In this document: positions 26,823 to 61,110 of the stretch, in pieces | Layout of the letters: the number at the start of each line of letters is the position of its first letter | Position numbering within the stretch: the first letter of the stretch is position 1 | Origin: a virus | IMG/VR virus record: IMGVR_UViG_3300037421_000079 | Coordinates: 1 to 63,866 of that record | Strand: one strand, 5' to 3' | DNA length: 63,866 nucleotides | Notes under the pieces: model-generated | The model's input: the letters and a program-made list of their open reading frames with translations, nothing else | Databases searched by the model: none | What the model was told of the DNA's origin: nothing | Translations under genes and position numbers: made by a program

Positions 26823-27079
26823 CGTACACGCTCGCAACAGTCGGCTGGAACGCCAACCATCGGTTTCCGCCGACCGCGATCACGAACGTATCGACGACGG
26901 TCGGCCTGCAGGACGTGACGTTGTCGGACGCGAACGCCAGAGCACCGGGTGCTCAGCAGAACGCCATGATGCTGGGCACCCAGATTCTGTGTCAGACCCC
27001 GTCAGGTGGGCAGGCTTGGTTCACGATCGACGCCGAGCGGTCAATTCCGGGCTACCCGCCGGTCATGAGGCGCGTGTAG
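26819..27079 (+). CDS. Small virion-region protein
   Basis: An 86-residue protein starting at the ATG overlapping the previous stop (ATGA). MTYTLATVGWNANHRFPPTA is followed by beta-type sequence. Function unknown. A GC-rich hairpin CCGGCG-aag-CGCCGG (27085-27099) follows before the next gene. Confidence 0.6.
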   Translation: MTYTLATVGWNANHRFPPTAITNVSTTVGLQDVTLSDANARAPGAQQNAMMLGTQILCQTPSGGQAWFTIDAERSIPGYPPVMRRV

Positions 27080-27123
27080 TATAGCCGGCGAAGCGCCGGG
27101 GGGCCGGCGCGAGGAGCTTCGCC

Positions 27124-28820: not shown

Positions 28821-29521
28821 GAAGGTTCAGGCATGTTTTCGATAATAGCCTTGGCAATGAAATACATGTCGAAATCAGTCCCTATTCCTTTGGTGGCGTT
28901 ACACCCCCACAAAATAAAACGTGTATTAGTTTGCGTATATCCAATTTTAGAATCTATTCGATCTACGCTCGGAGAAAAAGGATGTGGGCCATGCCCTTTA
29001 TATCCCGCAGCGAATGGCAATTTTGTTATTTCACAAAATCCAGTCCAGCGGCTGCGCGCCCAATCATCATCTAGCTCATACGTTATATTTTTCTCTTTAG
29101 CCCGGCTTCTTGCCGAAAGAAGTAAATACGCCCAAGGTTTGGAGGATTCTAATTTTGACCGGTGACGACTGCTATAAATCGGCTCTCGTTCGCGATACCA
29201 CTCAGGCTTTAAGTGCCTGCGCGCTCGAACTCGCGCGTTGTGTTCTTCACGATGTTTATGCCTCCAGCTTCGCCCAAAACAAATCCTGGAGCAGTATTTT
29301 TGTGATCTTTTTGTTTTCAAAAAAGGAGTGCTACAAATTTCACAGGTGGCTTCTTTTCTTGTGTATTTTGTATCGTCGGGATGTCGATCGTAGGCGCGAG
29401 AATAACATTCTCGCGAGCAAAATCTCTTGGGGCGCCCTCCTTGTAATTTACGAACGAATGGTTTTTCGCACTCTTCGCAAGCAACGACGATTGCACCGGG
29501 AGGAAGTGTCAGGTCATCCAC
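28814..29521 (-). CDS. HNH-type homing endonuclease, antisense
   Basis: A 235-residue protein. Two zinc-finger-like cysteine clusters (CEECEKPF...FCSRECYSR; CEICSTPF...YCSRICFGR) precede a catalytic region with FCEITKLPF, PSVDRIDSKIGYTQTNTRFI and CNATKG, characteristic of HNH-like phage endonucleases. The gene is AT-rich compared with the virion genes and lies on the opposite strand. The GTG at 29521 has GGGAGACGG upstream and overlaps the RHH gene. Mobile genetic parasite by family knowledge. Confidence 0.88.
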   Translation of the reverse strand: MDDLTLPPGAIVVACEECEKPFVRKLQGGRPKRFCSRECYSRAYDRHPDDTKYTRKEATCEICSTPFLKTKRSQKYCSRICFGRSWRHKHREEHNARVRARRHLKPEWYREREPIYSSRHRSKLESSKPWAYLLLSARSRAKEKNITYELDDDWARSRWTGFCEITKLPFAAGYKGHGPHPFSPSVDRIDSKIGYTQTNTRFILWGCNATKGIGTDFDMYFIAKAIIENMPEPSQ

Positions 29522-29651
29522 GTTCCGTCTCCCGGTATTTATCCACAATTCGCCGGACTAAGTCCGACACGGTAATCCCGAGTCGCTTCGCTTCCTTCTT
29601 GAGGAACTGGAGCTGCGGGTCGGTGAAGACGACAGATTGCTTCGTGCTCAT
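29514..29651 (-). CDS. Ribbon-helix-helix protein coupled to the homing endonuclease
   Basis: A 45-residue protein, MSTKQSVVFTDPQLQFLKKE then AKRLGITVSDLVRRIVDKYR, a minimal CopG-type RHH. Its stop overlaps the endonuclease start by 8 bp, so the two are co-translated. It may repress the endonuclease module or the flanking late genes. Too short to show more. Confidence 0.65.
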   Translation of the reverse strand: MSTKQSVVFTDPQLQFLKKEAKRLGITVSDLVRRIVDKYRETERG

Positions 29652-29686
29652 GGGCACCCTATTAGCACCCTTTGCGGAGGCTGTCA

Positions 29687-31981
29687 ATGCCCATTGACGC
29701 CCCCCGCCCTCCCACCGAGCAGGAAAATCCGTTCCTCCCCGCTGGGCCTCCTCCCAACATCCTGGAGGACTTCGCCGGCATCAACACGTCCACGACCCGG
29801 GCCGGCGTCGACGACAAGCAGATGTGGTGGTGCGACGGGTTTTACCCGATCGACCGGCGCAACTTGCGGACCATGTACGGGGTGGGGCCGGCGCTCTACA
29901 CGGCGACCGGCGGGCTCACGATCGTCATGTACGCGTTTGCCAACATCGGGGCGACCCCGTACGCGATCGTGTTCCTGTCGGACGGCTCCGTCGTGGCCGT
30001 CAACACCAATACGGCGGCGGTCACGACCGTGATGACGGCGGGGACCATCGTCAGTTCGAGCATCCAGACGATCGGCGTCTCTCAGTGGGGCCGGCAATTC
30101 GTCATCATCGTCTCGGGCTCGGTCGGAAACCCGAATGGGTATTGGCTGTGGGATGGCTCGCTTCTCTACGGTCCCGGCGCGCTCGGGCCGATTGTCACGC
30201 TCACCAATACGGGCACGTCTTACGTATCTGCACCAGGCGTTCTTGTTTCGGGCGGGCACGGCATGGGGGCCACCTTTGCGGCGGCTATCGCCAATGGCGT
30301 TGTGACGAGCGTGACTATCACCAACCCGGGCTCAGGCTATTTGGCGGGTGACAGCGTCAGCCTTGTGTTTTCTGGCGGCAACTCGACCGGATCGGGTGCG
30401 TCGATAACGGCGGCACTCGGCCACGCGGCAGGAAGTGGCGCTTCGCTTACCGCGCTCACCAGCTTGGTTCCGGCAGGGTTCAATAGTCACTACACGGTTT
30501 ACAGCGTCAGCATCGTCAATGGCGGGTCAGGCTACAGCGCGTTCGCGGCGGCGACGTGTTCGAGTGGCAACTCTGTCGGTGGGCAGCAGGCAGCCTTGGG
30601 GCTGACAATTTCAGGTGGCGTCATTACTGGCGTCAGCATCGCCAATGGCGGCGTGTATTCCACCAGCACGGTGCCGACCGTGGCGGTTAACGATACCGGG
30701 CTCTACTACGTGGCGTCGACCAGCATCGTTGCGCCTGGTTCAGGGTACAGCAATGCCGTGAAGATAACTGCGTCTGGCGGCGGTGGTCCAGTGACGCAAG
30801 CGACGTTTCAGGCGGGACTGACGAACGGTTCGATCACGTCGGTCTTGATAACGAATCCGGGCGTTTATGGGAGCAACAGCGCCCCGACTCTCGCGATCAG
30901 CGACACGTTCGTGACCGCCGCCGGTACTGTCCAACTGATGCCGTTCGGCATCCAGGGCACGGCGGTGCAGACGTACGCGGGGCGGGTGTGGGTCGCGAAT
31001 GGCGCCAGTGTGTTCTTCACCGCGCCGGGCTCGCAGATCGACTTTGCCACCAGCGACGGTGGCGGCAACTTCATCTCGTCCGATTCATTCCTGCGGGTGT
31101 TTTACTCGCAACTCATTCAGACCAACGGGTTCCTGTACCTGATTGGGGATTCCTCGCTCAACTATATCTCAGGCGTTTCGGTCTCAGGCTCGCCTCCGAC
31201 CACGACATTCACCAACCAGAACGCCGACCCGCAGGTAGGGACGCCCTACGCGTCGACCGGCGACCTGTTTGGCCGCAACATCGTGTTCGCCAACAGCTTC
31301 GGGGTGCACGTCAGTTACGGGGCGGCCGTCACCAAGATCAGCGAAGCGCTCGACGGAGTCTGGAATACAGTCGCTAATTTCGGCGGCCTGCAGCTGTCGG
31401 CCGCCAACGCGACGGTGTTCGGCAAGCGCATCTGGATGGTGCTCAGCCAGATCATCGACCCAGTCACGCTCGCGACCGTCAACCGGCTGTTCTGCTGGGA
31501 CGGCAAGAAGTGGTTCGCGACCCACCAGGATCACGCCCTCACGTTCATCCAGCACCAGGAGATCAACTCGGTGTTCATCGCCTACGGGACGGACGGCACC
31601 ACTATCTGGCCGCTGTTCCAGAGTCCGTCGTCGGGCTTTACCAAGGTGGTGCAGTCGCGCCTGTGGGACGCGCCCGGCGGCTATCTGTTCAACAAGACCG
31701 AGACTCGATTCTGGGCACTGGCGCAGTATTACTCTGCGTCTTCGCCCGACCTGACGGTCGACATCGACAACGAGCAGAATGCCTACCCGTACGCGACTCA
31801 GACCGGGAGCGCTCACGTGACGATCACGGGTCCGGCCGGGGCGGGCTACTTCGTGACGCCCCCGCAGGCGGTCGGGCAGGCGGGCGTGCTGTCCGGCATG
31901 ACCATCAGGACGACGGCGGCCGACATGTCGCTGATCAGCGCGATGCTGGGCGGCTACGCGGTCGCGGCTTACAGGGGCTGA
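29687..31981 (+). CDS. Large tail protein (tail-tubular-B-like position) with GxGY repeats
   Basis: A 764-residue protein; GGAGG precedes ATG 29687. The first 170 and last 350 residues look like a continuous nozzle-type tail protein (VDDKQMWWCDGFYPIDRRNL; LFCWDGKKWFATHQDH). Residues about 170-410 hold at least five repeats of the type 'VTITNPGSGYLAGD', 'SIVNGGSGYSAF', 'SIVAPGSGYSNA'. It follows the tail-tubular-A-like pair, matching podovirus gp12 order. Confidence 0.7.
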   Translation: MPIDAPRPPTEQENPFLPAGPPPNILEDFAGINTSTTRAGVDDKQMWWCDGFYPIDRRNLRTMYGVGPALYTATGGLTIVMYAFANIGATPYAIVFLSDGSVVAVNTNTAAVTTVMTAGTIVSSSIQTIGVSQWGRQFVIIVSGSVGNPNGYWLWDGSLLYGPGALGPIVTLTNTGTSYVSAPGVLVSGGHGMGATFAAAIANGVVTSVTITNPGSGYLAGDSVSLVFSGGNSTGSGASITAALGHAAGSGASLTALTSLVPAGFNSHYTVYSVSIVNGGSGYSAFAAATCSSGNSVGGQQAALGLTISGGVITGVSIANGGVYSTSTVPTVAVNDTGLYYVASTSIVAPGSGYSNAVKITASGGGGPVTQATFQAGLTNGSITSVLITNPGVYGSNSAPTLAISDTFVTAAGTVQLMPFGIQGTAVQTYAGRVWVANGASVFFTAPGSQIDFATSDGGGNFISSDSFLRVFYSQLIQTNGFLYLIGDSSLNYISGVSVSGSPPTTTFTNQNADPQVGTPYASTGDLFGRNIVFANSFGVHVSYGAAVTKISEALDGVWNTVANFGGLQLSAANATVFGKRIWMVLSQIIDPVTLATVNRLFCWDGKKWFATHQDHALTFIQHQEINSVFIAYGTDGTTIWPLFQSPSSGFTKVVQSRLWDAPGGYLFNKTETRFWALAQYYSASSPDLTVDIDNEQNAYPYATQTGSAHVTITGPAGAGYFVTPPQAVGQAGVLSGMTIRTTAADMSLISAMLGGYAVAAYRG

Positions 31982-33005: not shown

Positions 33006-33485
33006 GTGTCGATCATCTACCGGCGAGTGAAGTACGAGGAGGCGCGTGGTGTCATCGACGCGCTGCTGCCCGCGCACCACGCCGAGTTCGGCGATGCTGA
33101 CCTCCCGCTCGCGATGAACTGGGACTTCTACTGCGCTCTGGAGAAGCTGGGCCACATGTTCTGGGTGGTGGCGAGCGAAGACGAAAGGCCAATCGGGTAC
33201 GCGTTCGCGTTCGTGCACCCACACCCGTCCTCGATCGGCAGTCTCGTCGGCACCGTGGCGATATTCTTCGTGGAGGAACGGCCGGGACGAGCGCTTCTCG
33301 TGCGCTCGCTGCTCGGGCATACGATCTGGCTGCTCAAGAGCTATCCGATCCGTCGCGTATACGTTCGCACCGATTACGAGCGCAGCGTCGGCCGCCTGTT
33401 GGAGCCTATCGGCTTCGAGCCTATCGATGTAGGCTACGGCATGGTGGTCGAGACCAGGGAGGCGGCTCATGCCAGAGCTTCTTGA
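33006..33485 (+). CDS. GNAT-family acetyltransferase-like protein
   Basis: A 159-residue protein from a GTG. FWVVASEDERPIGYAFAFVHPHP and GTVAIFFVEERPGRALLVRSLLGH form the beta4-alpha3 acetyl-CoA region with an RPGRALL pyrophosphate loop. YVRTDYERSVGRLLEPIGFE is the closing motif. Two consecutive GNAT-fold genes between tail and internal virion proteins suggest a virion or host-modification role. Confidence 0.7.
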   Translation: MSIIYRRVKYEEARGVIDALLPAHHAEFGDADLPLAMNWDFYCALEKLGHMFWVVASEDERPIGYAFAFVHPHPSSIGSLVGTVAIFFVEERPGRALLVRSLLGHTIWLLKSYPIRRVYVRTDYERSVGRLLEPIGFEPIDVGYGMVVETREAAHARAS

Positions 33486-34518
33486 CCTTGCCCCGGCGTT
33501 CGGGGAGGCCCTCACTGGCCTGTTCGGGGCGGGTGAGGCCGCAGCGCCGGACTTGGCGGCGGGCGCGCTCAGCGGCGCGGCGACCGGCACGGCGAGCGCT
33601 GGCTTGGACCTCGCGTCGATGGCGGCTCCCGCAGGCGCTGCGGGTCTCTCGGCGGGCAACTTCGCGGCGGCCGATAGTGCGCTGCCGATGAATGCCTCGC
33701 TGACCTCTGGTACCGGCAACCTGACCGACATGGCGATGACCGGGCCGGGCATCAACCTGCCGGCCCTCGACCCGAATACCGGCATGCCGCTCTCGTCGCC
33801 CGGCACGTTCGACGCGACCTCCGGGGCGTCCGGCGGCTGGGGTGGAACAATGACCAGCGGGACTGCGCCGTCGATCACGCCAGCGGCCGACCCGCTGGCG
33901 TCGCTCGACGTGACGGGCGCGGCAGGTCAGGCGACCGGCGCGGCGACCGGCGCCACATCCGCACTGCCCGCCGACCAGAGCCTGCTCAGCAGTCTCCTGT
34001 CCGGCGCGACCAAACAGGTGACCGGCAACCCGGTCGGCCTCGCGGCGGCTACGGGCGGCCTGGCGCTCAACTTGCTCAAGGGCAACCAGACCGACCCGGC
34101 GCTCGCCCAAGAGGCCCAGCTTGCCAACTCGGCCAACGCGCAGGCCGCCCAGATGACCAAGTACCTGCAGACCGGCACCCTGCCGCCGGGCTTGCAGACG
34201 GCGGTCGACCAAGCGGTGGCGGCCCAGAAGGCCAGGATCATCTCCAATCACGCCGCGCAGGGCCAGAGTACGGACCCGACCCAGAACAGCGCGCTCGCCC
34301 AGGAATTGTCGAGCATCGATCTTCAGGCGACCGCCCAGATCGCCCAGATCGCCACCAGCCTCTACACGCAGGGCATCAACATGATGCAGATCGACGCCAG
34401 CCTGCTCAACAACATCTACCAGGCCGACGTGGCGCAGAACAAACAGGTTGGCGACGCGCTGACGAACTTCGCGAAGGCGCTCGCGCCTTCCACCAACTTG
34501 AACTTGGTCAAGGTGTGA
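33469..34518 (+). CDS. Internal virion protein A (gp14-like)
   Basis: A 349-residue protein. It has an Ala/Gly/Thr-rich low-complexity N-terminal 170 residues, then helical Gln/Ala-rich sequence (EAQLANSANAQAAQMTKYLQ) and SLLNNIYQADVAQNKQVGDA near the end. Composition and place ahead of two very large proteins match the smallest ejection-core protein of podoviruses. Overlaps the GNAT gene by 17 bp. Confidence 0.65.
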   Translation: MPELLDLAPAFGEALTGLFGAGEAAAPDLAAGALSGAATGTASAGLDLASMAAPAGAAGLSAGNFAAADSALPMNASLTSGTGNLTDMAMTGPGINLPALDPNTGMPLSSPGTFDATSGASGGWGGTMTSGTAPSITPAADPLASLDVTGAAGQATGAATGATSALPADQSLLSSLLSGATKQVTGNPVGLAAATGGLALNLLKGNQTDPALAQEAQLANSANAQAAQMTKYLQTGTLPPGLQTAVDQAVAAQKARIISNHAAQGQSTDPTQNSALAQELSSIDLQATAQIAQIATSLYTQGINMMQIDASLLNNIYQADVAQNKQVGDALTNFAKALAPSTNLNLVKV

Positions 34519-34519
34519 C

Positions 34520-36214
34520 GTGGCCGACGGCGACGCCACCACCCTGGAGCGGACGGACGACCAGCCGGTCGACATCGCGGCTGAGGCGGCCCCGCGCTTG
34601 GGCGTTCCCAGCCTGACGGCCGACATCCCGCCGGACGTGTCCGAGGGACTTGCGGGCCTGCAGCGCGATAAGCTCGCCAGGACCGAGGCGGTCGCCGAGC
34701 GCACGTTCGCGGGTCTCGACCAGGATCGCACCCGGGCGCTGCGCGCCTATGAGGCGTCGGGCGTTGGCCCCAACGACGTGCGGCCGTGGAACGCCGAGGC
34801 CGAGTGGAAGGACCGCAACTCCGACCCACTGGAGCGGTTCGGCTCGCTTGCGTCCGTGGTCGGTATCCTGGGGGCGGCCTTCACCCACCAGCCGCTGACC
34901 AACTCGCTCAACGCGTCGGCCGCCGCCATGGAGGCCATCAAGGCGGGAGACGCGGAGAGCTACAAGCGCGCGCACGAGGCCTGGAAGGACAACAGCGAAC
35001 TCGTCATCAAGCGCGCCCAGATGATGCACCAGCACTACCAGGACGCCGTCGAGCTGATGAAGACCGACATGGTGGCGGGCGAGGCTAAGATGAGGGTGGT
35101 GGCCAACCAGTTCGGCGACAAGCAGGCGCTGTTCTTGACCGAGCACGGCATGAACGCCGACCTGATGACGCTGATCGAGAAGCGCAACAAGGCGAATCTC
35201 GACTACGCGGAGCACATGCCGGCCGCCATGCAGGCGGCCGAGAAGACCGCCGACCTGATGGAGAGCACCCGGGACATCCCCAAGGGCAGCCCCGAGTACG
35301 CGCAGGCGGTACACGAGTGGAACGCCCGCTGGGACCCGTACGCGACGCGTCGGGCGGGACAGACTGGTGCCGACCAGGAATTTATTCGGCATTACTATGC
35401 CGAGAAACCGAACTCCACCACGGAAGAATTTACTCAGGCGTTCGGCGAGTTCAAGCGGGGCCAGAAGCCCGAGAAGACGCTCACGCCCGACCAGGAGTTC
35501 GTGCAGCGGTTCTTCGCCGAGCACCCAGACGCCAACACGGTAGACTTCGCCAAGGCGTACGACGACTTCAAGGCGAAGCAGAAGCCGGCCGGGAACGCGC
35601 CCGTGCGCACGCCCGGCCGTGCCCAGCAGGAGGAGATCGACCGGCGCACGAAGGAGTACGAGGCTGCCGGCATGGACCACCAGGCAGCGTTCAACCGGGC
35701 CACCAAGGAGGTGAAGACCGTCAGCGCGCCGCCGATCACCGGCAACAAGCGCGAGCAGCTCGAAGGCCACGTCCAGCAGTACGACAACGCGGTCGACATC
35801 ATCGACAAGTCCACCAAGGTGCTGGAGAAGTACGTGGGCGCCGCCGGCATCGCGGGCCGCATCACCCGCACCAAGGAGCGGATCGGCAACATCTTCGGCT
35901 CGAACGACACCGACCGGGTGCAGTTCATGCGCGACATCGAGCGCCTGCAGGCGATGGCCCCGCAGTTGTTGCTCGACCGGGCCGGCCGCCCGCTGTCTGC
36001 CGAGGCCGCCAAGATCACCGACATCGTGGCGGGCATCAACGCGGGCGACACCACTGCCAACACCATGCGGGCGCTCCGGGACCTCAAGGCGGTGCTGCGC
36101 AAGATGCAGGGTGATGCGAAGGGCCGGCTGGACGGCAAGACCGAGGCGCCCGCGGCTGAGCCCGCGCCGCCCTCGAATGCCGAGGCTCCGTGGCTCAATG
36201 ACCCGGTGAAGTGA
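34520..36214 (+). CDS. Internal virion protein B with internal duplication
   Basis: A 564-residue, largely helical protein from a GTG. Two adjacent related segments, DQEFIRHYYAEKPNSTTEEF (from about 35377) and DQEFVQRFFAEHPDANTVDF (from about 35490), each continue to a KxxQKP turn, so the unit of about 37 residues is duplicated. It probably belongs to the ejectosome. Context-based call. Confidence 0.65.
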   Translation: MADGDATTLERTDDQPVDIAAEAAPRLGVPSLTADIPPDVSEGLAGLQRDKLARTEAVAERTFAGLDQDRTRALRAYEASGVGPNDVRPWNAEAEWKDRNSDPLERFGSLASVVGILGAAFTHQPLTNSLNASAAAMEAIKAGDAESYKRAHEAWKDNSELVIKRAQMMHQHYQDAVELMKTDMVAGEAKMRVVANQFGDKQALFLTEHGMNADLMTLIEKRNKANLDYAEHMPAAMQAAEKTADLMESTRDIPKGSPEYAQAVHEWNARWDPYATRRAGQTGADQEFIRHYYAEKPNSTTEEFTQAFGEFKRGQKPEKTLTPDQEFVQRFFAEHPDANTVDFAKAYDDFKAKQKPAGNAPVRTPGRAQQEEIDRRTKEYEAAGMDHQAAFNRATKEVKTVSAPPITGNKREQLEGHVQQYDNAVDIIDKSTKVLEKYVGAAGIAGRITRTKERIGNIFGSNDTDRVQFMRDIERLQAMAPQLLLDRAGRPLSAEAAKITDIVAGINAGDTTANTMRALRDLKAVLRKMQGDAKGRLDGKTEAPAAEPAPPSNAEAPWLNDPVK

Positions 36215-39192
36215 TGCCCGAAGCCGCCCTCGACATGGACGCTGCTTCTGCGGGACTGACGGCCGATCCGGCTGTCGCGGCGTTCGTCGGGACCCCCAAG
36301 GAGCTGCCCCGGATCGCGACGCCGCGCGAGTACGAGCTGCTGCCGCAGGGGTCCGACTACCTGGACCCGGAGGGGCAGAAGCGCCTCAAGCCCTGGTCGG
36401 TCACGTCCGCCAAGGACTACGAGGAGGTGCCCGAGGGGTCCGAGTACCGCGACCCGACCGGCACGACCCGGCTCAAGCCTCGCTACCAGGGCGTCGGCAT
36501 GACGGCCCAGACCCTCTACGACATGGCCCTGACCGACCGCGAGCGCGAGAAGGTCCTGGAGCGGTCCTACCCGGGCAAGGTCAGGAAGGCGGAGGGAGGC
36601 GACTACTACGTCGACGACGAAGGCACTTTGCGCAAGCCGGGCAGGGGTGTGGAGCGCGTGTTTGGCGCCGTCGCGGCGATGACAGCCCCTACCGGTTTGG
36701 GCGCCCTGGGCGCCCTGGGGGGCGGTGCGGTGGGCACGCTGGGGGGTCCCGGCGGCACCGTGGTGGGCACGATGGCAGGTGGGGCGTCCGGCTCGCTCCT
36801 GGGGCAGTCGTTCAACGACCTCGTGCTCCAGCTCGCGGGCGTGTACGACCGCACCCCCGGCGAGGAGCTGACCAACCTGGGGCTGTCGGCGGCAGCCGGC
36901 GCGTCGGGCGCGGGCGTCGGGCGCGGGATCGCCACTGTGGTGCGGGGCGCGGGTGGCGCGAGCGCGCTCGGGCAGGCGCTTCCCCAGCTCGGTGCCAAGT
37001 TCGTGGGCGCGGAGGCCGAGGGCCTGCGCACCGCACGTTCACTCGCCGACAAGGGCGTGCTGCCGCCCCCGTCCGGCTGGGCCAAGGAGGCGCCGCACAT
37101 TCAGAACATCGTCGAGGTGTTCGACTCGGCGTTCCACACCCAGGAGCCGCTGCTGCAGTCGGCCACCGAGCACTATGAGAAGGGCGCCCAGGGTATCTTG
37201 CGCGATCTCGGCGTCGAGAAGCCGGGGCCGGTTGTCAAGCCGACCGCCGCCCCGTCGACCGAGGAGGCGGGCGTCAAACTTTTGGCAAAAGCCCGCGAAG
37301 AATCCACCGCCGCGGACGCCCGTTTGCGGGCCGCGCTCGACGCCCGCAAGGTCGAGGCGGCGGCCGGCACGGCCGAGCGGCAGGGCGCGCACGAGGCCCA
37401 GACCGAGACCCTGCGGGCGGCCGAGCACGAGGCCAGGGAGAAGGCTCAGGGGCTGATCGACGCCGGGTTCGCGGACATCCAGCGCGACGCCGACGAGGCC
37501 ATGCGGGCCACGAAGGCGGGTCACAACAGCGGCGACCTGTGGTGGCGGGTGGGCGAGAAGCTCAAGGCAATCAAGCAGGGCATCTCCGAGCGCGCCCGCA
37601 CCATGTACGACCGGGCCGACGAGCTGGCGGGCGAGCACCGGCCCGACATCGGCGGCCTGCCCGAGAGCGCGAGCGCCTTCCTGGAGCAGCTGCCCGAGGG
37701 GTTCGAGAGCAAGTACCCGACGATCGTCCGCCAACTGCGCGACCTTGCGGGCGTCGAGAAGGTCGATCCCAAGACCGGGCTGCCGACCGGCGAGTGGGAG
37801 AAGCCGCCCGTGCAGCCGACGTTCGGGCAACTGCATAACCTGCGCTCGATCCTGCGGGCCAACTACAGCAGTCTCGACCTGACGCCCGACATCAAGCAGG
37901 GCACGTTCAAGTATTTTGCCCACAAGGTCGACAACATTTTAAGTGATCCGGGCGCGACGCCCGAGCTGCAGGAGGCGGCGCGCGCGCTTAGGTCGGCGGA
38001 CGACTTCTACCGCGAGTCGATGGGGCCGCTCACCGACCGGCACATCCAGGCGGTCATGAACGGCCTGGAGTCCGGGATGCCGGCCGACCCCAAGGTGCTG
38101 TTCTCGACCCTGGTGAAGGAAGGTCGTTCGGACCTGACCGCCAAGGTGCGCGAAATGGTCGGCCCGAACCTGTGGGCCGGCGTCAAGGCTGCGGACACGC
38201 AGGAGATGCTCGACGCGTCCAAGACCCTGGTGCCCGGCCAGATCGACGGGCGCGCGTTCGCCCGGCAAGTCCTGGAGCGGCACCGCGGCAACATGCTGGA
38301 GGCCGTGCACGGCCGAGAAGCGTCAGCGAAGCTGCTCAAGCAAGCGCAGGACATCGAGATGCTGGACGGGCGCCTCGACGTGAGCGTGCGGCCGAACGAC
38401 ACCGTGTCGGACGTGATCCGCAAGGCGAGCGAGGCCGCCCAGGCCGTCAAGGAGGCCGCCCGGCTCGATCCGATCGGCGCGTTCAAGAAAGAAATGAAGC
38501 AGATCGAGACCGAGCACCGCGCCCAGGTCGGCAAGATGCGGGCCGAGCGCAAGTCCGATCCGCTCGGCTTCCTGTACGAGCCCTCGACGCTCGCGAGTCA
38601 GGCTGTCGATAAAATTCTTGGCAGCGAGGACCTGATCCTGGCCGCCGCCGCCAAGTTTGGCGAGCAGTCGCCCGAGTTCGGCCTGATGCGGCAGCTGTGG
38701 GCGCAGCGGGTGCTGGAGAACACGTTGCGGCCGGGCGAGCGGCTCGCCAAGGTGTCCGAGGAAGTCCAGCGGGTGATGTTCCCGGGCGTGACTCTCAAGC
38801 AGATGCAGACACTGGCCAAGGAGATGGACTTCCTGCTGGACACCCGGCGGGCCGCCAAGGGGACCGCGCAGGGCATGAGCGCCATGGCCAAGGTCGAGCA
38901 CCCGTGGTCGCACATCCTCGGGGGCGGGGGCCTCGTCGGCAAGGTGCTCTCGGCCCCCACCAAGGTGATCCCGGGCAGCGACGCCATGGGGCGCTTCATC
39001 CTGGGCGGCTACTACGGCCTGATCAGGAAGATGGCGACCTCGCCCGCGACCCTGCGCTGGTTCGAGAAGGGCCTGACGGGCAGCCCCGAGGAGAAGGCGG
39101 CGGTCAGGGCGGTGATCAGCAAGACCCTGCAGAAGGGCGGCGCGGTCGGGGCGGGGGCCGGCGAGGCGGCGGAGCAGCAGGGGCTGCAGTGA
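36214..39192 (+). CDS. Large internal virion / ejection protein
   Basis: A 992-residue protein, the largest gene. It has an N-terminal region with repeated short units (YELLPQGSDYLDPEGQKRLK and YEEVPEGSEYRDPTGTTRLK), a Gly-rich hydrophobic segment at about 150-200 (GLGALGALGGGAVGTLGGPG) that could insert in a membrane, and long charged helices to the end. Size, order and a membrane-active glycine segment fit gp15/gp16-type DNA-ejection proteins. No transglycosylase motif was seen. Confidence 0.7.
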   Translation: MPEAALDMDAASAGLTADPAVAAFVGTPKELPRIATPREYELLPQGSDYLDPEGQKRLKPWSVTSAKDYEEVPEGSEYRDPTGTTRLKPRYQGVGMTAQTLYDMALTDREREKVLERSYPGKVRKAEGGDYYVDDEGTLRKPGRGVERVFGAVAAMTAPTGLGALGALGGGAVGTLGGPGGTVVGTMAGGASGSLLGQSFNDLVLQLAGVYDRTPGEELTNLGLSAAAGASGAGVGRGIATVVRGAGGASALGQALPQLGAKFVGAEAEGLRTARSLADKGVLPPPSGWAKEAPHIQNIVEVFDSAFHTQEPLLQSATEHYEKGAQGILRDLGVEKPGPVVKPTAAPSTEEAGVKLLAKAREESTAADARLRAALDARKVEAAAGTAERQGAHEAQTETLRAAEHEAREKAQGLIDAGFADIQRDADEAMRATKAGHNSGDLWWRVGEKLKAIKQGISERARTMYDRADELAGEHRPDIGGLPESASAFLEQLPEGFESKYPTIVRQLRDLAGVEKVDPKTGLPTGEWEKPPVQPTFGQLHNLRSILRANYSSLDLTPDIKQGTFKYFAHKVDNILSDPGATPELQEAARALRSADDFYRESMGPLTDRHIQAVMNGLESGMPADPKVLFSTLVKEGRSDLTAKVREMVGPNLWAGVKAADTQEMLDASKTLVPGQIDGRAFARQVLERHRGNMLEAVHGREASAKLLKQAQDIEMLDGRLDVSVRPNDTVSDVIRKASEAAQAVKEAARLDPIGAFKKEMKQIETEHRAQVGKMRAERKSDPLGFLYEPSTLASQAVDKILGSEDLILAAAAKFGEQSPEFGLMRQLWAQRVLENTLRPGERLAKVSEEVQRVMFPGVTLKQMQTLAKEMDFLLDTRRAAKGTAQGMSAMAKVEHPWSHILGGGGLVGKVLSAPTKVIPGSDAMGRFILGGYYGLIRKMATSPATLRWFEKGLTGSPEEKAAVRAVISKTLQKGGAVGAGAGEAAEQQGLQ

Positions 39193-39488
39193 GCAAGCAC
39201 AAGACCATCGACGACCTCGTCGCCCGGGTGATCGAGGACGCCCTCGACAAGGGCTGCAAGCTGGCCGACCGGGTCGAGGCCCTCAAGGTCGTGACTACCT
39301 ACCACGCCCTCACCCTCAAGCACCGCCGGCACGACGACGGCGGGGGCGGCTTGACCTGGGAGGACATTCAGCGCGAAGTACACGGCGCTGGCGACTTGCC
39401 AGCCACGGAGGCCCAGAATGGCACCGAAGTTCGAGGTCGTGCAGGACGACGAATTGACCGACCGACCGGCGGCACGCACAGCGCCTGA
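39189..39488 (+). CDS. Small hypothetical protein
   Basis: A 99-residue protein from a GTG overlapping the ejection gene stop. The first 50 residues form helices (HKTIDDLVARVIEDALDKG). The C-terminal third overlaps the next gene by 71 bp and is low-complexity, so the protein may have extended recently. Function unknown. Confidence 0.55.
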   Translation: MSKHKTIDDLVARVIEDALDKGCKLADRVEALKVVTTYHALTLKHRRHDDGGGGLTWEDIQREVHGAGDLPATEAQNGTEVRGRAGRRIDRPTGGTHSA

Positions 39489-39699
39489 CGAAGTCGGCAC
39501 CAGCCTGCTGCTGCTCGGCCTCCAGACGGTCGGCAAGCGGTTCGTGGCCGCGCTCGCGGACCTGTTCTGCCTGGTGACGGTCGCGAGCGCGTTCTTCCTG
39601 TGGAACGCCATCCCGAGCCCTAATGTCTACCAGATCGTCAGCCTGACGATCTACGCGGTGTTCGTGCTGGCCGCGAACTGGATCGTGAGGAAGTCATGA
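39418..39699 (+). CDS. Two-span membrane protein
   Basis: A 93-residue protein; GGAGG precedes the ATG. Two hydrophobic spans (FCLVTVASAFFLWNAI; YQIVSLTIYAVFVLAANWIV) follow a soluble acidic N-terminus. It could be a holin-like or inner-membrane protein. Overlaps the next gene by ATGA. Confidence 0.6.
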   Translation: MAPKFEVVQDDELTDRPAARTAPDEVGTSLLLLGLQTVGKRFVAALADLFCLVTVASAFFLWNAIPSPNVYQIVSLTIYAVFVLAANWIVRKS

Positions 39700-40085
39700 G
39701 GAAGTTTTTTTGGATCGTTGCGTCGGTTTGTGGGCTTGCATGGGCGCAACCGGCTCGGTCTCAGCCGCTGATGATTCCTTGCTACCCGGCAACGTCACCT
39801 ACATCCGGGTGCGTGGGGGTGAAGATTTACGCAGCGCTCGGGTATCAGCAAATCACGTCGGTGTCGGCCGCTACTGGCCTGACGGTTCCAACCGGAGCCA
39901 TCATCGCCGAGATATGTGTCGAGACCCAGGCGATCCGTTATCGCGATGACGGTACAAACCCGACCGCGACCGTTGGAATGCCGATCCCGGCCGCCACCTG
40001 CTTTCAATACGCGGGGCCGTTGGGGGCCATAAAGATCATCGAGCAAACTCCGAGCGCGACCATCGACGTGAGCTATTATAAATGA
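39696..40085 (+). CDS. Exported small protein
   Basis: A 129-residue protein with a Sec signal peptide: MRKFFWIVASVCGLAWAQPA, cleavage probably after ARS or WAQ. The mature part is beta-rich with four cysteines (PCYPATSPTSGCVG, EICVETQ, TCFQYAG). Unknown function; first in a run of signal-peptide proteins extending to 46947. Confidence 0.65.
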   Translation: MRKFFWIVASVCGLAWAQPARSQPLMIPCYPATSPTSGCVGVKIYAALGYQQITSVSAATGLTVPTGAIIAEICVETQAIRYRDDGTNPTATVGMPIPAATCFQYAGPLGAIKIIEQTPSATIDVSYYK

Positions 40086-41662
40086 CCCGCATTATCGCAA
40101 TTTCGCTCGTATGGCTGTTTGCGCTCACAAGCGCATTCGCGCAGATCGGCCCGCCGTACGACAACCCAATTGGTCCGGGTGGACAAAGCGGCGGCGGTGG
40201 CGGAACGCCAGGGGGCACCAGCGGCCAACTCCAATACAACAATGCCAGTACGTTCGGCGGCTTCACGCTCGGCGGTGACTGCACCCTATCGCAGCCGAAT
40301 ATCACTTGTACCAAAACAAATGGAACATCTTTCGGCGCCCTCGCCACTGCTACTCCCGGCACTGGAGTTGCTACCGCGCTGGGCGTCAATGTCGGTACGG
40401 CCGGCGCCTTTATCGTCAACGGTGGCACGTTGGGTACGCCATCGGCGGGCACGCTGACGAATGCGACCGGTCTGCCAATCTCGACTGGTGTTTCCGGCCT
40501 CGGCACTGGCGTTGCGGTGGCGCTAGGCAATACGGCGGGTGGATCAGGCGGGTTCGCGCTGCAATCAAGCCTTGGGTCCTATCTCCTAGCCGCGAACAAT
40601 CTTTCCGATCTTACCAACGCCAGCACTGCACGGACGAATCTCGGACTAGGCACCGCTGCGACGCAGAACACCGGTACGTCCGGCGGAACCCTTTGCCTGC
40701 TCAATGCGGCATGCACGTACAGTGGCAATCTGATGGTATCTTCCGCGAGCTTCGGGCTCAGCGGAAACATTTCGGCTCCTGCCTGGACTACGTCCGGCAT
40801 CCGCTACCAGAATGTCGCCGCGACGCTAACCGACACGACGTCGAGCGGGACCGTCGCGCTTGCCTACACCGATGTATGGGGCGGGAACACAGTCGCGGCC
40901 TCGGCCGCTGCGACCTTCACCAATTATTACGGCAGCTTCTTCAAAAATCCGATTGCCGGAACGAACGTCACCCTCACGAACCGCTACGCGCTGGGCGCGG
41001 ATTCGATCAACACGACGACGCTCGCTATTGGCGGGACGGTGACGGGGCCGGATGGTGGGACGTGGACTAGCGCGGGCATAAATCTATCGGCCGGCTCAGT
41101 CGGCGCGCCGTCGCTGACGTTCGGCGGTGACACGACGACAGGATGGTTCCGGCCTGCGGCTAACCAACTTGAAGTTTCGATCAGTGGCGTAAAGAAATTT
41201 GACTATGGTGTGACCAATTCCGGCGCGTGGACCTTTTCGGCTGCGGTTAACTTCGCGGGGAATGTGGGCAGCAATGTTCTTAATACCGGTAACCCATTTT
41301 CTGTAGGGCTTTCTGGCTCTAATCCGCAGTTGCAATTCAACTTCAACGGCGTAAAGACAATATCCACGTCAAACATCGGAATGTTTGCATTTGGAGGAAC
41401 CACAAGCTCTTTTCCCGGGCTTAAGCAATCGGGTACTAACCTTTTGGTGAGGCTTGCAGACGACAGCGGGGATGCAAATATTTCCGCCAATCTTTTGCAA
41501 CCGCATGGGTTTACTGTATCTACTCTGCCGGCGTCGCCAACAACTGGCTCGATTGCTTATGTGACTGATGCGGTGGCATGCACATTCTTGGCTACGTTGA
41601 CGGGGGGCGGAACAACGTATTGCCCGGTGACTTACAACGGAACTGCATGGGTGGGCGGATGA
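40082..41662 (+). CDS. Fibre-like protein with N-terminal signal peptide
   Basis: A 526-residue protein beginning TRIIAISLVWLFALTSAFA, a clear signal peptide, then a Gly-rich linker (GGQSGGGGGTPGGTSGQLQY). The body is Gly/Thr/Ser/Asn-rich beta sequence with repeated TNATGLPISTGVSGLGTGVA-like and LSDLTNASTARTNLGLG units. The latter is a well-known phage tail-fibre motif. A signal peptide on a fibre is unusual. It may be exported or displayed rather than built into the tail in the usual way. Confidence 0.7.
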   Translation: MTRIIAISLVWLFALTSAFAQIGPPYDNPIGPGGQSGGGGGTPGGTSGQLQYNNASTFGGFTLGGDCTLSQPNITCTKTNGTSFGALATATPGTGVATALGVNVGTAGAFIVNGGTLGTPSAGTLTNATGLPISTGVSGLGTGVAVALGNTAGGSGGFALQSSLGSYLLAANNLSDLTNASTARTNLGLGTAATQNTGTSGGTLCLLNAACTYSGNLMVSSASFGLSGNISAPAWTTSGIRYQNVAATLTDTTSSGTVALAYTDVWGGNTVAASAAATFTNYYGSFFKNPIAGTNVTLTNRYALGADSINTTTLAIGGTVTGPDGGTWTSAGINLSAGSVGAPSLTFGGDTTTGWFRPAANQLEVSISGVKKFDYGVTNSGAWTFSAAVNFAGNVGSNVLNTGNPFSVGLSGSNPQLQFNFNGVKTISTSNIGMFAFGGTTSSFPGLKQSGTNLLVRLADDSGDANISANLLQPHGFTVSTLPASPTTGSIAYVTDAVACTFLATLTGGGTTYCPVTYNGTAWVGG

Positions 41663-41664
41663 TC

Positions 41665-42030
41665 CTACTTCCCGCACTCCCGGTACTCCATCGCGATCAG
41701 GTCGCGCCCGCGCAGGTAGACCATGGCGTCGGTCAGTTCGCCGAGGCGGGCTTGCAGCGGGGCGGAATACCCCGCCCACAGTGCGGCCGTGGCGTCCTCG
41801 GTGGACTTCGCATCGAGCCGGCCCCAGGCATAGCCCTTGGGCTTGTGGAACCCGAGCCACGCCTGCGGGGCGACGCACAATTGATCCTCCGGCAGGCCGA
41901 GCCAAAGCGTGCAGGCACTCTTGCACGATCCGATGATGGCGACGTACTGGCCGTGATCCCGGTAGGAATGGAAATAGCCGCCTTCGTCGGTCATGACGCG
42001 GACGATGGCGGGCGGGGCATCAAGGGGCAT
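41665..42030 (-). CDS. ClpP-like serine protease-fold protein, antisense
   Basis: A 121-residue protein on the opposite strand to all its neighbours. VAIIGSCKSACTLWLGLPED then CVAPQAWLGFHKPKGYAWG closely follows the periplasmic ClpP-like family common in alphaproteobacteria (SxCxSACTL...GFH). The catalytic Ser is expected in SACT and the His in GFH. AGGAG lies upstream of ATG 42030. A separately acquired gene is likely. No terminator was found on either side. Confidence 0.75.
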   Translation of the reverse strand: MPLDAPPAIVRVMTDEGGYFHSYRDHGQYVAIIGSCKSACTLWLGLPEDQLCVAPQAWLGFHKPKGYAWGRLDAKSTEDATAALWAGYSAPLQARLGELTDAMVYLRGRDLIAMEYRECGK

Positions 42031-42033
42031 GGC

Positions 42034-42288
42034 ATGAAACTCCTATGGGCGGCGGTCTGTGCCTTGGCATTGTGGCCCATGTCGGCCCTCGCCGACAAGG
42101 CCCCGAAGTGGACAGCGCAAGAGGAGACCGGGCTGTACTACTTGCTCGACACCCTGATCTCGACCAAGGCGTGCGGCAACGGTTGCATCGCCGATGCGCA
42201 GTATTTCCGCAACAAGCTGATCCAGGCGCCGCAGGTCGAGGATAAGCCGCCGGCCGTTAAGCCGAGCGAGGGGGCGCCAGAGCAATGA
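42034..42288 (+). CDS. Small exported protein
   Basis: An 84-residue protein with signal peptide MKLLWAAVCALALWPMSALA and a short mature domain holding a CGNGC motif (TKACGNGCIADAQYF), followed by a Pro/Lys tail. It starts three bases from the divergent ClpP-like gene and overlaps the next gene by ATGA. Function unknown. Confidence 0.6.
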   Translation: MKLLWAAVCALALWPMSALADKAPKWTAQEETGLYYLLDTLISTKACGNGCIADAQYFRNKLIQAPQVEDKPPAVKPSEGAPEQ

Positions 42289-43883
42289 GGCGACTTCTAC
42301 CCGCCCTCTTCGCCCTTGCGCTGCTGGCCTCCCCGGCTGGCGGTCAGCCTGTGCAGCAATCGGGAAGCGTGACACCTGGCCACGTAAGTACGTGGGTCAC
42401 GAATGGCGTCATCGGAGACGGCGGCGCTGTCACGGCCAACGACTCCCTGTCGGGCGGTTCCACGACCTCAATCGCGTCCGGCAGCACGTACTACTGCGCC
42501 ACCGCCGGCTGCGCCACCTCGGCGGCGATTGCGTCCACGGTGCCGTTTACCGGGACGGCGGTTAACCTGAACGTCGCCGTAAGCACCGCACCGGGCGCTG
42601 GTCAAACCGTCACCGCGACGCTGATGGCCGGCCCGTATGGCGCGCTGATCGCTACCAGCGTGATTTGCCAGATTTCCGGCACGGCCACGTCATGCCAGGA
42701 CACGACGCATCAAGTTAACATCGTCGCGGGACAAGCGTGGTCTGTCCGTCTTGTCACCAGCGGTTCGGCTATGGGCACTGGCGGAGAGACGTTCGGTTTG
42801 CAGTTCATCAGCGCTGTCCCACCGCAGCCCACTTCACCGTATGTGCTGCAATCGGGTAACATAACGTCGGGCCACTTGACGGCGTGGATTACAAATGGCG
42901 TCGTGGGCGATAGTGGCATTGCACTTCCGTCTCTCCCGGGTTCTCTACTCGCAACGCTCACGTCCCCGCCCGCGTTCGTAATCGGTGATGCCGCATGCTT
43001 CGCCAATACGCTAGGAGTGCTTCAGGATTGTGGAGTGCCTAACGGAAACGTGCGCGGTCCAAATAGCTCTGTCAACGGCAACCTTGCATCGTTCAACGGT
43101 ACGGGTGGAGCGACTATCCAAGACAGCGGCATACCCAGCACCCTGGCGGGGTCCTACATTGTAGGTCCAAACTCTGTTACTGGAACTAACAATTCCTCAT
43201 TTAGTTGCGCAACAATTACGAATCGATCCAACACTGGTAGCGCTATGAGTGATACGCTGCCGACATCTCCATCGGCAAATGGATGCGTCTATTTCATCAG
43301 GAACAATGATGCATCAGCATTTTATATCATAGCCGCTAGTGGCGCGCCTCAGTTAGATGGTGTGACTAATGGCTCCTTCGGTCTTAGCCCCGGTCAGCAG
43401 GCCGCAATCCAATCTAATGGAACAAACTATACCACTGTCTTTAAACCAATACAGGTAGCCCCGCCATTTGATCCAACTTGCGTTCCATGGGTCGCACACG
43501 CTTTTACCATGTTTCCTGCGGATAGCGTTAACATTACCAACCCCACTCCGCAAACAAACGGTTTGGTTGGAGAAATTAGCAGTCTGCCGTACACGGTGCC
43601 CAGCAGTAAGAAGTTGGTTCTAAATTATCTCTCAATCCAAGGCAACACGGGCGCGGCTATGTTCCCGTGGGTAGGTTCCGGATCATTTGTGGCCAACGTG
43701 GTCATCCAAACCTTTACCGCTCCGACAGTTACTACATCAGGTACCTTGCCTGGTACTAGGGAATGGAAACCAAATTTTATATTTCCAGCGGGAGTTATTT
43801 TGAACTTAACCATGGAGCAATTTGGACAACCAGCCAATACAGTCTACGGCTGGACCATGGGAGGCATGTTATGCGCGCTCTGA
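42285..43883 (+). CDS. Fibre/adhesin-like protein with signal peptide and C-terminal binding domain
   Basis: A 532-residue protein. Signal peptide MRRLLPALFALALLASPAGG, then two related units (VTPGHVSTWVTNGVIGDGGA and ITSGHLTAWITNGVVGDSGI), low-complexity Ser/Thr/Gly sequence, and a C-terminal domain of about 135 residues beginning CVPWVAH. That last domain is repeated as the whole mature part of the next gene. Phage tail fibres often have such repeats. The signal peptide argues for export before assembly. Confidence 0.7.
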   Translation: MRRLLPALFALALLASPAGGQPVQQSGSVTPGHVSTWVTNGVIGDGGAVTANDSLSGGSTTSIASGSTYYCATAGCATSAAIASTVPFTGTAVNLNVAVSTAPGAGQTVTATLMAGPYGALIATSVICQISGTATSCQDTTHQVNIVAGQAWSVRLVTSGSAMGTGGETFGLQFISAVPPQPTSPYVLQSGNITSGHLTAWITNGVVGDSGIALPSLPGSLLATLTSPPAFVIGDAACFANTLGVLQDCGVPNGNVRGPNSSVNGNLASFNGTGGATIQDSGIPSTLAGSYIVGPNSVTGTNNSSFSCATITNRSNTGSAMSDTLPTSPSANGCVYFIRNNDASAFYIIAASGAPQLDGVTNGSFGLSPGQQAAIQSNGTNYTTVFKPIQVAPPFDPTCVPWVAHAFTMFPADSVNITNPTPQTNGLVGEISSLPYTVPSSKKLVLNYLSIQGNTGAAMFPWVGSGSFVANVVIQTFTAPTVTTSGTLPGTREWKPNFIFPAGVILNLTMEQFGQPANTVYGWTMGGMLCAL

Positions 43884-44332
43884 GTCTAATGACATTATTA
43901 TTTCTATTGTACTCACCAGCGGCACTTGCCTCTTGTGTTCCTTGGATTGCGCATGGCGAAACTTTACTGACCGCCAACACGCTCCTAACTAACCCAGCTC
44001 CGCAATTGAACGGCTTGCAAGGAGAGTTTGCGAGTCTCCCTTACACGGTCCCGTCGAATAAGAAACTAACGGTGAATTACTTAAGCCTCGAAGGCATCAC
44101 CGGAGCGACTATATATGTGTGGGTAGGGTCCGGTTCGTTCGCCGCGAACGTAGTCATTCAGGGATTTACAGCTCCTGCGATTACAGGAGGGGCAGGCACC
44201 GGTCCTGGAACCCCAGAATGGGGGCCAACTTTTGTATTCCCAGTATCTACAATAGTTAACATAGAATTGCTTGGTTCTCAATCTCTTGTTTACGGATGGG
44301 TTATAAGTGGTACCCTGTGTGATGTGCCATAG
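43871..44332 (+). CDS. Exported paralogue of the preceding C-terminal domain
   Basis: A 153-residue protein: signal peptide MRALSLMTLLFLLYSPAALA then CVPWIAHGETLLTANTLLTN. The mature chain aligns from end to end with the C-terminus of the upstream protein (LPYTVPSNKKLTVNYLS versus LPYTVPSSKKLVLNYLS; WVGSGSFAANVVIQ versus WVGSGSFVANVVIQ; VYGWVISGTLC versus VYGWTMGGMLC). A free-standing copy of a putative receptor-binding domain, probably by duplication. Confidence 0.75.
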   Translation: MRALSLMTLLFLLYSPAALASCVPWIAHGETLLTANTLLTNPAPQLNGLQGEFASLPYTVPSNKKLTVNYLSLEGITGATIYVWVGSGSFAANVVIQGFTAPAITGGAGTGPGTPEWGPTFVFPVSTIVNIELLGSQSLVYGWVISGTLCDVP

Positions 44333-44349: not shown

Positions 44350-44646
44350 ATGACAGACTGGAACGCCGCCCTAGACGCCGCCAAAGAGGCGGTCCCATTC
44401 GCGGCTGAGCAACTCGACGCGCTGAAAAGGCGACCGCCCGCGTGTCTGCACCCGGAACTGACGTTCGACTCGGGCGACTACTACGTCCTATGTCACACCT
44501 GCAACTCCCGATGGGTGCGGGTAAAGATCGGCGGCCTGGAGTCGGGAACTGACCGTGAGGGACGGCAGGTCGGCGGTGACTCGTCCGCGGCAAATATCGG
44601 CCAGGCGTCCGGGCTGTCGGGACACAGGAGAGTGGAGCCGAAATGA
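44350..44646 (+). CDS. Small zinc-ribbon-like protein
   Basis: A 98-residue protein. CLHPELTF...YVLCHTCNSRWV contains one possible Cys-His/Cys-Cys metal site. Ends with ATGA overlap onto the amidase. Unknown function. Confidence 0.55.
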   Translation: MTDWNAALDAAKEAVPFAAEQLDALKRRPPACLHPELTFDSGDYYVLCHTCNSRWVRVKIGGLESGTDREGRQVGGDSSAANIGQASGLSGHRRVEPK

Positions 44647-45263
44647 TGGCATGGACCCCAATCGTCGGCCGAAAGTTTTCGGCAGCCGAGTTCGACGCCT
44701 ACCTGCGGACGTTAAAGTTCAATTCGTGGCGCCCAGCATTTGTAACCGTCCACAACACCAGCTCGCCGACGCGCGCACTCTATACCGCGTGGCAGCAGCG
44801 CAACCCACCGGTGACGATGGAGCGCTGGCTGCAGAACCTCGTCGGCTACTACCGCGACCAGCAGCACTGGAGCGCGGGACCGCATTGGTTCGTGGCCAAC
44901 GACGGCATCGGGGTGTTCACGCCGCCGACGCATCCCGGCGTACACACGCCGTCATGGAACGCGATCAGCCTGGGCGTGGAGACCATCGGGGAGTTCGAGA
45001 CCGAGCCGTTTGACGGCGCCGTGCGCGATAACTTGATCTCCTCGCTCGCCTCGATCCACTCCGCGCTCGGCCTCAACCCGGCCGACTACGCGCTCGGCCG
45101 CCACGGCCTGCACTTCCACAAGGAGGATAGGCGCACCACGCACCGGACCTGCCCCGGTCGGCACATGGTCAAGGCGGACCTCGTCGCCGCCGTGGTGGCG
45201 AAGATGGCGGAACTTCACCCCGGCGATCACGACCCGGCAAGACCCGCGGAGCCAGCGGCATGA
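44643..45263 (+). CDS. N-acetylmuramoyl-L-alanine amidase (endolysin)
   Basis: A 206-residue lysin of the amidase_2/PGRP type. FVTVHNTSSPTRA contributes the first zinc His, HWFVANDGIGVFTP and GVETIGEFE are core strands, and HRTCPGRHM contains the second His and the Cys ligand. It has no signal peptide, so it needs the holin. GTGGAG is upstream of the ATG. First of a tightly coupled lysis cassette. Confidence 0.92.
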   Translation: MMAWTPIVGRKFSAAEFDAYLRTLKFNSWRPAFVTVHNTSSPTRALYTAWQQRNPPVTMERWLQNLVGYYRDQQHWSAGPHWFVANDGIGVFTPPTHPGVHTPSWNAISLGVETIGEFETEPFDGAVRDNLISSLASIHSALGLNPADYALGRHGLHFHKEDRRTTHRTCPGRHMVKADLVAAVVAKMAELHPGDHDPARPAEPAA

Positions 45264-46173: not shown

Positions 46174-46947
46174 ATGAAACGCTATCTACTCACTGGAATG
46201 GCCTTGCTGGCCCTAGTCGCGCCCGCCTATGCGGCCGATTTGCCGCCGCCTATCCTGAAGGCCCCGCCCATCGTGGGCTATCCCTACACCGGCTCTGGCG
46301 TCTACGCGGGCATCGGCGCCGTAGGGGCGGTCGCCAACGTCGGGACGGCCGACGCGCTAGGCAATACGCAGCTTGCCGCGCTTGGGGCCGCGCTCGAACT
46401 GACCGCCGGATATCAGTTCGGCCTTGGGGCCAATTGGGCGGCGGTTGAAGTCGGGCTGCAATACACAAACATTGGGGCGACGACCGTCGTTCCGGGCATT
46501 CTGCCGGGGTCTACGGCGGTGGGCTCCGTCAACTCGAAGTGGGGATTTGAGGAACGGGCGATGTTCGGCTTCCCGATCCAATCCGTCCTGGCAGTCTTGC
46601 CGAATCTCAACGTTGTGTTTCCGGGTTTGCCCGCCTTGCCGGCCGGCGTCACTCCCGCCAACACTACGCAACACCCGTACATCTACGCCTTCCTGCGGGA
46701 GGACGACGTGACAGCGGTCCTCGCCATGGCAAACGGAGCGGCGTCGTTCTCAGGCCAAGCTTGGCAAATTCAGCCCGGCATCGGTGCAGGCATTCGGCAG
46801 CAGTGGACAAATGGCCTCGTGGTCGACACGTCAGCCGGCTGCACCTTCGCAGGAACCGGGTTTACCCTTGGCGGGCCTCCTGGTATGGGTGGGGCCTCAG
46901 CCAATCTCGGGCGCGATTGCCGGGCAAAGGTCGGATTCCTGTACTGA
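46174..46947 (+). CDS. Outer-membrane beta-barrel protein of alphaproteobacterial type
   Basis: A 257-residue protein. Signal peptide MKRYLLTGMALLALVAPAYA, mature start ADLPPPILKAPP, then alternating beta-strand sequence with Gly and aromatics (YAGIGAVGAVANVGTADALG; TAGYQFGLGANWAAVEVGLQ) ending CRAKVGFLY, an aromatic C-terminus as in barrel proteins. It resembles the small outer-membrane proteins abundant in Bradyrhizobium relatives. GGAGGACACC precedes the ATG. Followed by two strong terminators, so it behaves as a moron. It may block superinfection or change the host surface. Confidence 0.85.
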   Translation: MKRYLLTGMALLALVAPAYAADLPPPILKAPPIVGYPYTGSGVYAGIGAVGAVANVGTADALGNTQLAALGAALELTAGYQFGLGANWAAVEVGLQYTNIGATTVVPGILPGSTAVGSVNSKWGFEERAMFGFPIQSVLAVLPNLNVVFPGLPALPAGVTPANTTQHPYIYAFLREDDVTAVLAMANGAASFSGQAWQIQPGIGAGIRQQWTNGLVVDTSAGCTFAGTGFTLGGPPGMGGASANLGRDCRAKVGFLY

Positions 46948-60219: not shown

Positions 60220-60413
60220 CAAACGAACCCCTTATCCTTCGCGAGCCACTCGGGCATCGTCACGTCGACCAACCCTGCGTTCAAGGCATTCGGCGCCTGC
60301 TCTACTTGCGACTTTGGCAGCCACTTCGCGCTTGGACCCTGACCGTCGTCGGAAAACAAGATGGCGCGCTCGGTTTCGTGGTGCACCACACCGGTGATGT
60401 CGATGAGCTTCAT
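60219..60413 (-). CDS. Small hypothetical protein
   Basis: A 64-residue protein (MKLIDITGVVHHETERAILF ... WLAKDKGFV). Beta-rich start with a late helix. ATGA overlap with the recombinase. Resembles small phage proteins of the 'ilfsddg...kWLPkSqve' type, function unknown. Confidence 0.65.
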   Translation of the reverse strand: MKLIDITGVVHHETERAILFSDDGQGPSAKWLPKSQVEQAPNALNAGLVDVTMPEWLAKDKGFV

Positions 60414-61108: not shown

Positions 61109-61110
61109 GA

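Follow-up and report, generated by a model that had tools for sequence, protein, structure and literature searches.

Predicted Sec signal peptides on the fibre-like proteins of an uncultivated family of tailed phages

By the established view, tail fibres carry no signal peptide and fold in the cytoplasm, and tailed phages are assembled wholly in that compartment. What, then, is to be made of a phage in which one fibre-like gene after another begins with a predicted export signal? This question is raised by a virus record of 63.9 kb (IMGVR_UViG_3300037421_000079), whose 63,866 nucleotides are referred to here as the window. The phage belongs to an uncultivated soil family in which nearly all of the fibre-like host-recognition proteins carry such a signal, against the textbook account of a virion built entirely in the cytoplasm.

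The signal-peptide module and its surroundings

The genes in question form a compact group, and the features of the window that bear on them are the following.

17529-19445, terminase (TerL)
20563-22287, portal, homologous to annotated portals
25650-31981, conserved structural proteins
33469..39192, plus strand, three large, cysteine-free Ala/Gly-rich proteins upstream of the module and in the same direction; probable ejection or internal virion proteins, judged from position and composition
39418..39699, plus strand, 93-aa product immediately ahead of the module, with two predicted transmembrane segments
39696-44332, the module of five signal-peptide genes, between virion and lysis genes
39696..40085, plus strand, 129-aa protein with a signal peptide followed by four cysteines (29-39, 74-102)
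40082..41662, plus strand, 526-aa fibre-like protein with a signal peptide (predicted cleavage at about residue 20) and the shaft motif LSDLTNASTARTNLGLG
41665..42030, minus strand, 121-aa product without a signal peptide (phrog_19619, E 3.4e-8), inside the module between two fibre genes and not counted in the exported set
42034..42288, plus strand, 84-aa protein with a signal peptide, whose mature part contains a single pair of cysteines (47-51) and a charged tail rich in Pro
42285..43883, plus strand, 532-aa fibre-like protein with a signal peptide, an N-terminal motif (QSGSVTPGHVSTWVTNGVIGDGG) and a C-terminal domain (392-531)
43871..44332, plus strand, 153-aa free-standing tip domain with its own signal peptide and a cysteine at either end of the domain (22 and 150)
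44643..45263, plus strand, N-acetylmuramoyl-L-alanine amidase (endolysin; PF01510, E 1.8e-10), downstream of the module, where the lysis region begins
46174-46947, plus strand, 257-aa signal-peptide protein, OMP-like, outside the 39696-44332 range
60410-61123, minus strand, serine recombinase (PF00239)

The reading frames at 39696, 40082, 42034, 42285 and 43871 were confirmed at the lengths given, and their N-termini are, in gene order, MRKFFWIVASVCGLAWA, MTRIIAISLVWLFALTSAFA, MKLLWAAVCALALWPMSALA, MRRLLPALFALALLASPA and MRALSLMTLLFLLYSPAALA. Genes 39696, 40082 and 42285 begin on an ATGA overlap with the preceding stop, and 43871 shares its first 13 nt with the end of 42285. The 526-aa product matches a PHROG tail fiber protein (E 8.6e-5), the repeat motif of gp92, a phage short tail fiber of solved structure (9zd7), is matched by its residues 166-199 (E 1.9e-9), and its cysteines pair as 67-76, 205-211 and 500-514. 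Residues 164-523 are 38% identical to the signal-peptide fibre of a relative (G006), this distal part being common to one clade. A sequence-only reading of the window had placed a single fibre motif in both long products; LSDLTNASTARTNLGLG is indeed found in the 526-aa product but is missing from the 532-aa product, whose fibre motif is the different one listed above. The 532-aa product has an internal second copy of its own motif (VLQSGNITSGHLTAWITNGVVGDSG) at about residues 187-214 and ten cysteines in five consecutive pairs; it gave no PDB match to fibre shaft repeats of the gp92 kind.

The 43871 product is 57% identical to residues 392-531 of the 42285 product, its C-terminal tip, and has neither the motif nor a shaft; no lipobox was seen in it. 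Its predicted structure is all-beta at low confidence (pLDDT 57), and among the best structural matches of this model, all with poor TM scores, are the central tail fibre of lambda and the baseplate cup of a Klebsiella phage. The 39696..40085 product had no family match above the cut-off, and the 42034..42288 product had no family match. The latter is similar in size and position to two small exported proteins of another relative (L049 702-932 and 4045-4305); all three have 76-86 aa and charged tails and adjoin fibres, and such proteins could be candidate exported assembly chaperones.

Outside the exported set, the 93-aa protein (hydropathy peaks 2.25 and 1.86) has a counterpart at the same place in nearly all relatives, 33-57% identical, and its gene is present also in G004, a relative whose fibres lack signal peptides. 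Conservation of the ejection-type proteins is partial, the 41665-42030 product is absent from the five relatives compared, and the window's amidase was not found in relatives. The 46174-46947 product (start ADLPPPILKAPP) resembles small outer-membrane beta-barrel proteins; proteins 39% and 31% identical to it lie near the same region in L084 and L099, and plasmids searched for it gave no match. The serine recombinase is kept in most relatives at 45-53% identity, whatever their module. Inversion of the module DNA by this enzyme was rejected on that ground and because no convincing inverted repeats were found flanking the module.

Export signals and paired cysteines

Signal peptides were called by our own fixed rule for n-, h- and c-regions, not by SignalP; the rule asks for a positive n-region, an uncharged hydrophobic h-region and small residues at -3/-1. 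The module products show these hallmarks of Sec export and signal peptidase I cleavage, and nearly every fibre-like module gene passes, in the window and in the relatives. The sequence-only reading had ascribed N-terminal signal peptides to 39696, 40082, 42034, 42285 and 43871 and proposed signal-peptide prediction as a check; all five pass our rule-based scan as Sec/SPase-I-type, from well placed starts. The rule also passes 15 of 327 genes outside the module, some of them real lipoproteins or exported proteins, and 1.2% of internal Met starts, giving an overall background of 1.2-4.6%, while about 15% of residue shuffles of the module N-termini pass too. One small protein has diverged far more in its signal peptide (dN 0.106) than in its mature part (0.007), and the diverged segment is still a signal peptide. 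Judged from these features and from the cysteines described next, the module products are very probably exported from the cytoplasm.

The cysteines give independent evidence of export. Counts were made on non-redundant mature products of at least 200 aa and compared with non-exported proteins of the same genomes, the signal-peptide cut of L051 being set at a later AxA-type site, which changes its cysteine count from 9 to 8. The number is even in 19 of 20 exported products, vs 31 of 69 non-exported ones (Fisher 6e-5), and in 14/14 of the signal-peptide motif fibres that are long and of readable length. Spacing follows suit: cysteines 1-2 and 3-4 are at most 30 residues apart in 82% of cases among exported products, compared with 49+-5% under random placement, 47% outside and 25% for the 2-3 and 4-5 gaps. 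The window's six signal-peptide products have 4, 6, 2, 10, 2 and 2 cysteines after the signal peptide, all even, and orthologues differ by two cysteines rather than one (6/8, 14/16). Neighbouring proteins of about 160 aa that share the motif and have no signal peptide contain 0-2 cysteines. The pattern suggests that the exported products fold outside the cytoplasm with hairpin-like disulfides.

There are exceptions. There are 18 cysteines in the motif fibre of G004 and 14 in a tailspike-like protein from the G006 clade, both proteins being without a signal peptide and without a clear order pairing of their cysteines; export is therefore not essential for such proteins. Nonetheless, both the fibre-like nature of the module products and the reality of their export signals are supported, through conservation across the family, paired cysteines, and signal-peptide-free paralogues that are nearly devoid of cysteine.

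Relatives and the variable distal parts

A scan with the portal gene recovered 42 viral contigs, of which some ten measure roughly 62-68 kb, and a scan for the motif QSGN-x-TPGH added further contigs, those of some relatives being partial. The portal and motif scans thus found relatives, whereas a degenerate scan with the 532-aa product found none, tblastn of that product in phages gave nothing, and the phage collection held no near DNA match to the window; in bacterial genomes, the motif scan met unrelated proteins only. The module, behind ejection-protein genes and the gene with two transmembrane segments, is present in about 17 related viral contigs. Relatives that hold the region have the two-segment gene followed by fibre-like genes, nearly all with signal peptides, and each of about 17 distinct phages has one signal-peptide motif fibre, of about 460 to 1320 residues where complete.

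The module of G004 lacks convincing signal peptides, its motif fibre included, and in two distant portal relatives (MW202825 and MW202753) none were present in the fibre-region genes checked. A signal peptide does occur on the 1253-aa fibre of a siphovirus-like temperate phage of a spring metagenome (L111, MW202444, 36356-40476), which is otherwise unrelated to the family; a gene close to this fibre is annotated as a sep15/selm redox domain. Taking this phage together with the distribution among the relatives, the export trait appears to be widely kept in the family, probably derived, and not confined to it.

What is shared within the module is narrow. The compared relatives keep TerL, the portal, the capsid-like and hub proteins and several further structural proteins, mostly near full length; unlike most other virion genes, the module is not conserved. 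In the 42285 product, residues 1-47 are conserved and the remainder mostly is not; the signal peptide and QSGNVTPGHxxxWxTNGVIGDGG are nearly the only part common to the relatives, and 8-21% of the length, mainly the N-terminus, is shared with any of five relatives. This is the conserved N-terminus and variable distal part of the fibre class. Because the other virion genes are conserved and the module is not, we read the exported set as probably being the hypervariable, receptor-recognising part of the phage. Some exported relatives have sugar-active or sugar-binding folds (Sortilin/BNR in L061, GH141-like in L059).

In about nine relatives (including L057 9027-11539, L060, L084, L096, L051, L059 and L099), the motif protein of about 160 aa adjoins the exported motif fibre. 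It is all-beta, has no signal peptide and almost no cysteine, and is absent from the window; its structural matches are phage proteins without a name, together with a weak one to a capsid-shell chain of cyanophage Pam1.

Possible fates and comparison with known systems

The sequence-only reading had offered decoys, surface adhesins and fibres added outside the inner membrane, unranked; the fibre-like nature and the export signals stand, and among the fates one can be favoured. Addition outside the inner membrane is preferred because the N-terminal motif is conserved, each phage has one motif fibre, the genes have a late-operon position and the other virion genes are conserved. The module would encode host-recognition appendages, namely fibres and tip domains with their small accessory proteins, expressed late from a position between the virion and lysis genes. 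Host Sec would move them to the periplasm, where signal peptidase I would cleave them and they would fold with hairpin-like disulfides. Cleavage would place the docking-type motif QSGNVTPGH...GVIGDGG within a few residues of the mature N-terminus, which is where the paralogues without a signal peptide have it. As the inner membrane and wall give way around lysis, the finished fibres would meet the DNA-filled particles from the cytoplasm and attach to them. Late attachment is allowed, since T4 fibres and P22 tailspikes can join finished particles in vitro.

The sequence itself shows the signal peptides and their conservation, the paired cysteines, the motif in forms with and without a signal peptide, and the hypervariability; that the proteins are expressed late, cleaved, oxidised and, most of all, attached to virions is what we infer. 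We give even weight for and against fibres that are exported, cleaved, oxidised in the periplasm and attached to virions around lysis. Attachment of exported fibres, taken by itself, we place at evens or a shade below, and slightly under evens lies the scheme of virions built in two compartments, in which DNA-filled cytoplasmic particles and Sec-exported, disulfide-bonded periplasmic fibres are joined at lysis. Against attachment, the exported fibres would find no intact virions in their compartment before lysis. The free tip encoded by 43871, which lacks motif and shaft, may not be located on the virion, and the conserved structural proteins at 25650-31981 might be the receptor binders instead.

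That last possibility leads to the strongest rival, which we consider unlikely though by no means negligible: the module products are exported decoys or receptor blockers, periplasmic or released at lysis, that bind to the receptor used by the phage itself, or to precursors of that receptor, and so stop superinfection or the loss of progeny on debris, while other proteins bind the receptor on the virion. The 43871 product, a tip domain with its own signal peptide and close likeness to the fibre tip, fits such a role, as do small exported proteins of relatives that resemble isolated C-terminal fibre domains (L057 4830-5084, L061 8980-9228) and the tailspike-like protein without a signal peptide in some relatives. 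However, a decoy has no need of a full-length shaft or of an N-terminal motif that is conserved in one fibre of each phage. A clear fibre-like module gene without a signal peptide is also missing from the window, G009 and G016, so that under this reading host recognition would fall to the conserved structural proteins. Decoy and fibre roles could both be true, for different module members.

The surface adhesins of the earlier list, understood as lysogenic-conversion proteins made in the lysogen, are improbable. The serine recombinase conserved in relatives and the OMP-like signal-peptide protein would suit them, but the recombinase is at most a putative integrase, no outer-membrane export route was recognised in the module, and the genes lie within the virion-to-lysis stretch, overlapping one another and the upstream same-strand gene, an order that argues for late expression. 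Slightly less probable still, the hydrophobic N-termini could be uncleaved membrane anchors or virion-attachment helices of proteins that remain cytoplasmic. Cleavage here is predicted from sequence and some h-regions are long (e.g., MRRLFILSAIAAILLIVKLAIA in G006), yet the small residues at -3/-1 are of cleavage type, and paired cysteines are nearly absent from the motif proteins that lack signal peptides. Wrong start codons or chance hydrophobic N-termini, which the passing shuffles might suggest, were rejected as next to impossible in view of the background rates, the ATGA-coupled starts and conservation across many phages with diverged sequences.

A literature search, with most subscription papers outside its coverage, returned no report of signal peptides on tailed-phage fibres. 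Fibres are known; exported, disulfide-bonded fibres in a tailed phage are new, as far as the literature covered shows. If a whole phage family does export its host-recognition proteins and fold them with disulfides, it would either assemble its virions along a two-compartment path or possess a large arsenal of receptor-directed proteins sent out of the cytoplasm. The recognition of fibre genes in metagenomes would change as well. The usual expectation is seen where the lack of signal peptides in phage DGR target proteins is counted in favour of phage origin (PMC6199706).

Among known systems, tailed-phage fibres with LSDLTN..ARTNLGLG repeats (gp92, 9zd7; PHROG tail fiber families) share the shaft repeat of 40082, and tailed-phage fibres likewise combine a conserved N-terminus with a swapped distal part, as in 42285, and a position near the virion genes. 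The module products differ from them in having signal peptides and paired cysteines, where known fibres are cytoplasmic and signal-free. The coat proteins of filamentous phages (pIII, pVIII) have signal peptides and are exported by the host before assembly; they are anchored in the membrane, and assembly takes place as they extrude through the envelope. The likeness is that of virion proteins exported by host machinery before assembly, virion status being presumptive for the module; the window, in contrast, has the terminase and portal of a tailed dsDNA phage. T5 Llp, a small lipoprotein unrelated to the fibre, is a phage-encoded receptor blocker. It resembles the module as an exported product beside receptor-binding genes that could mask a receptor, whereas 43871 copies the fibre's own tip and shows no lipobox. 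Exported endolysins (Lys44 of Oenococcus phage fOg44, P1 Lyz and R21 of phage 21) reach Sec via a signal peptide or SAR domain (PMC6116005). The Sec route is shared, but those proteins are lysis enzymes, whereas the module encodes fibre-like recognition proteins.
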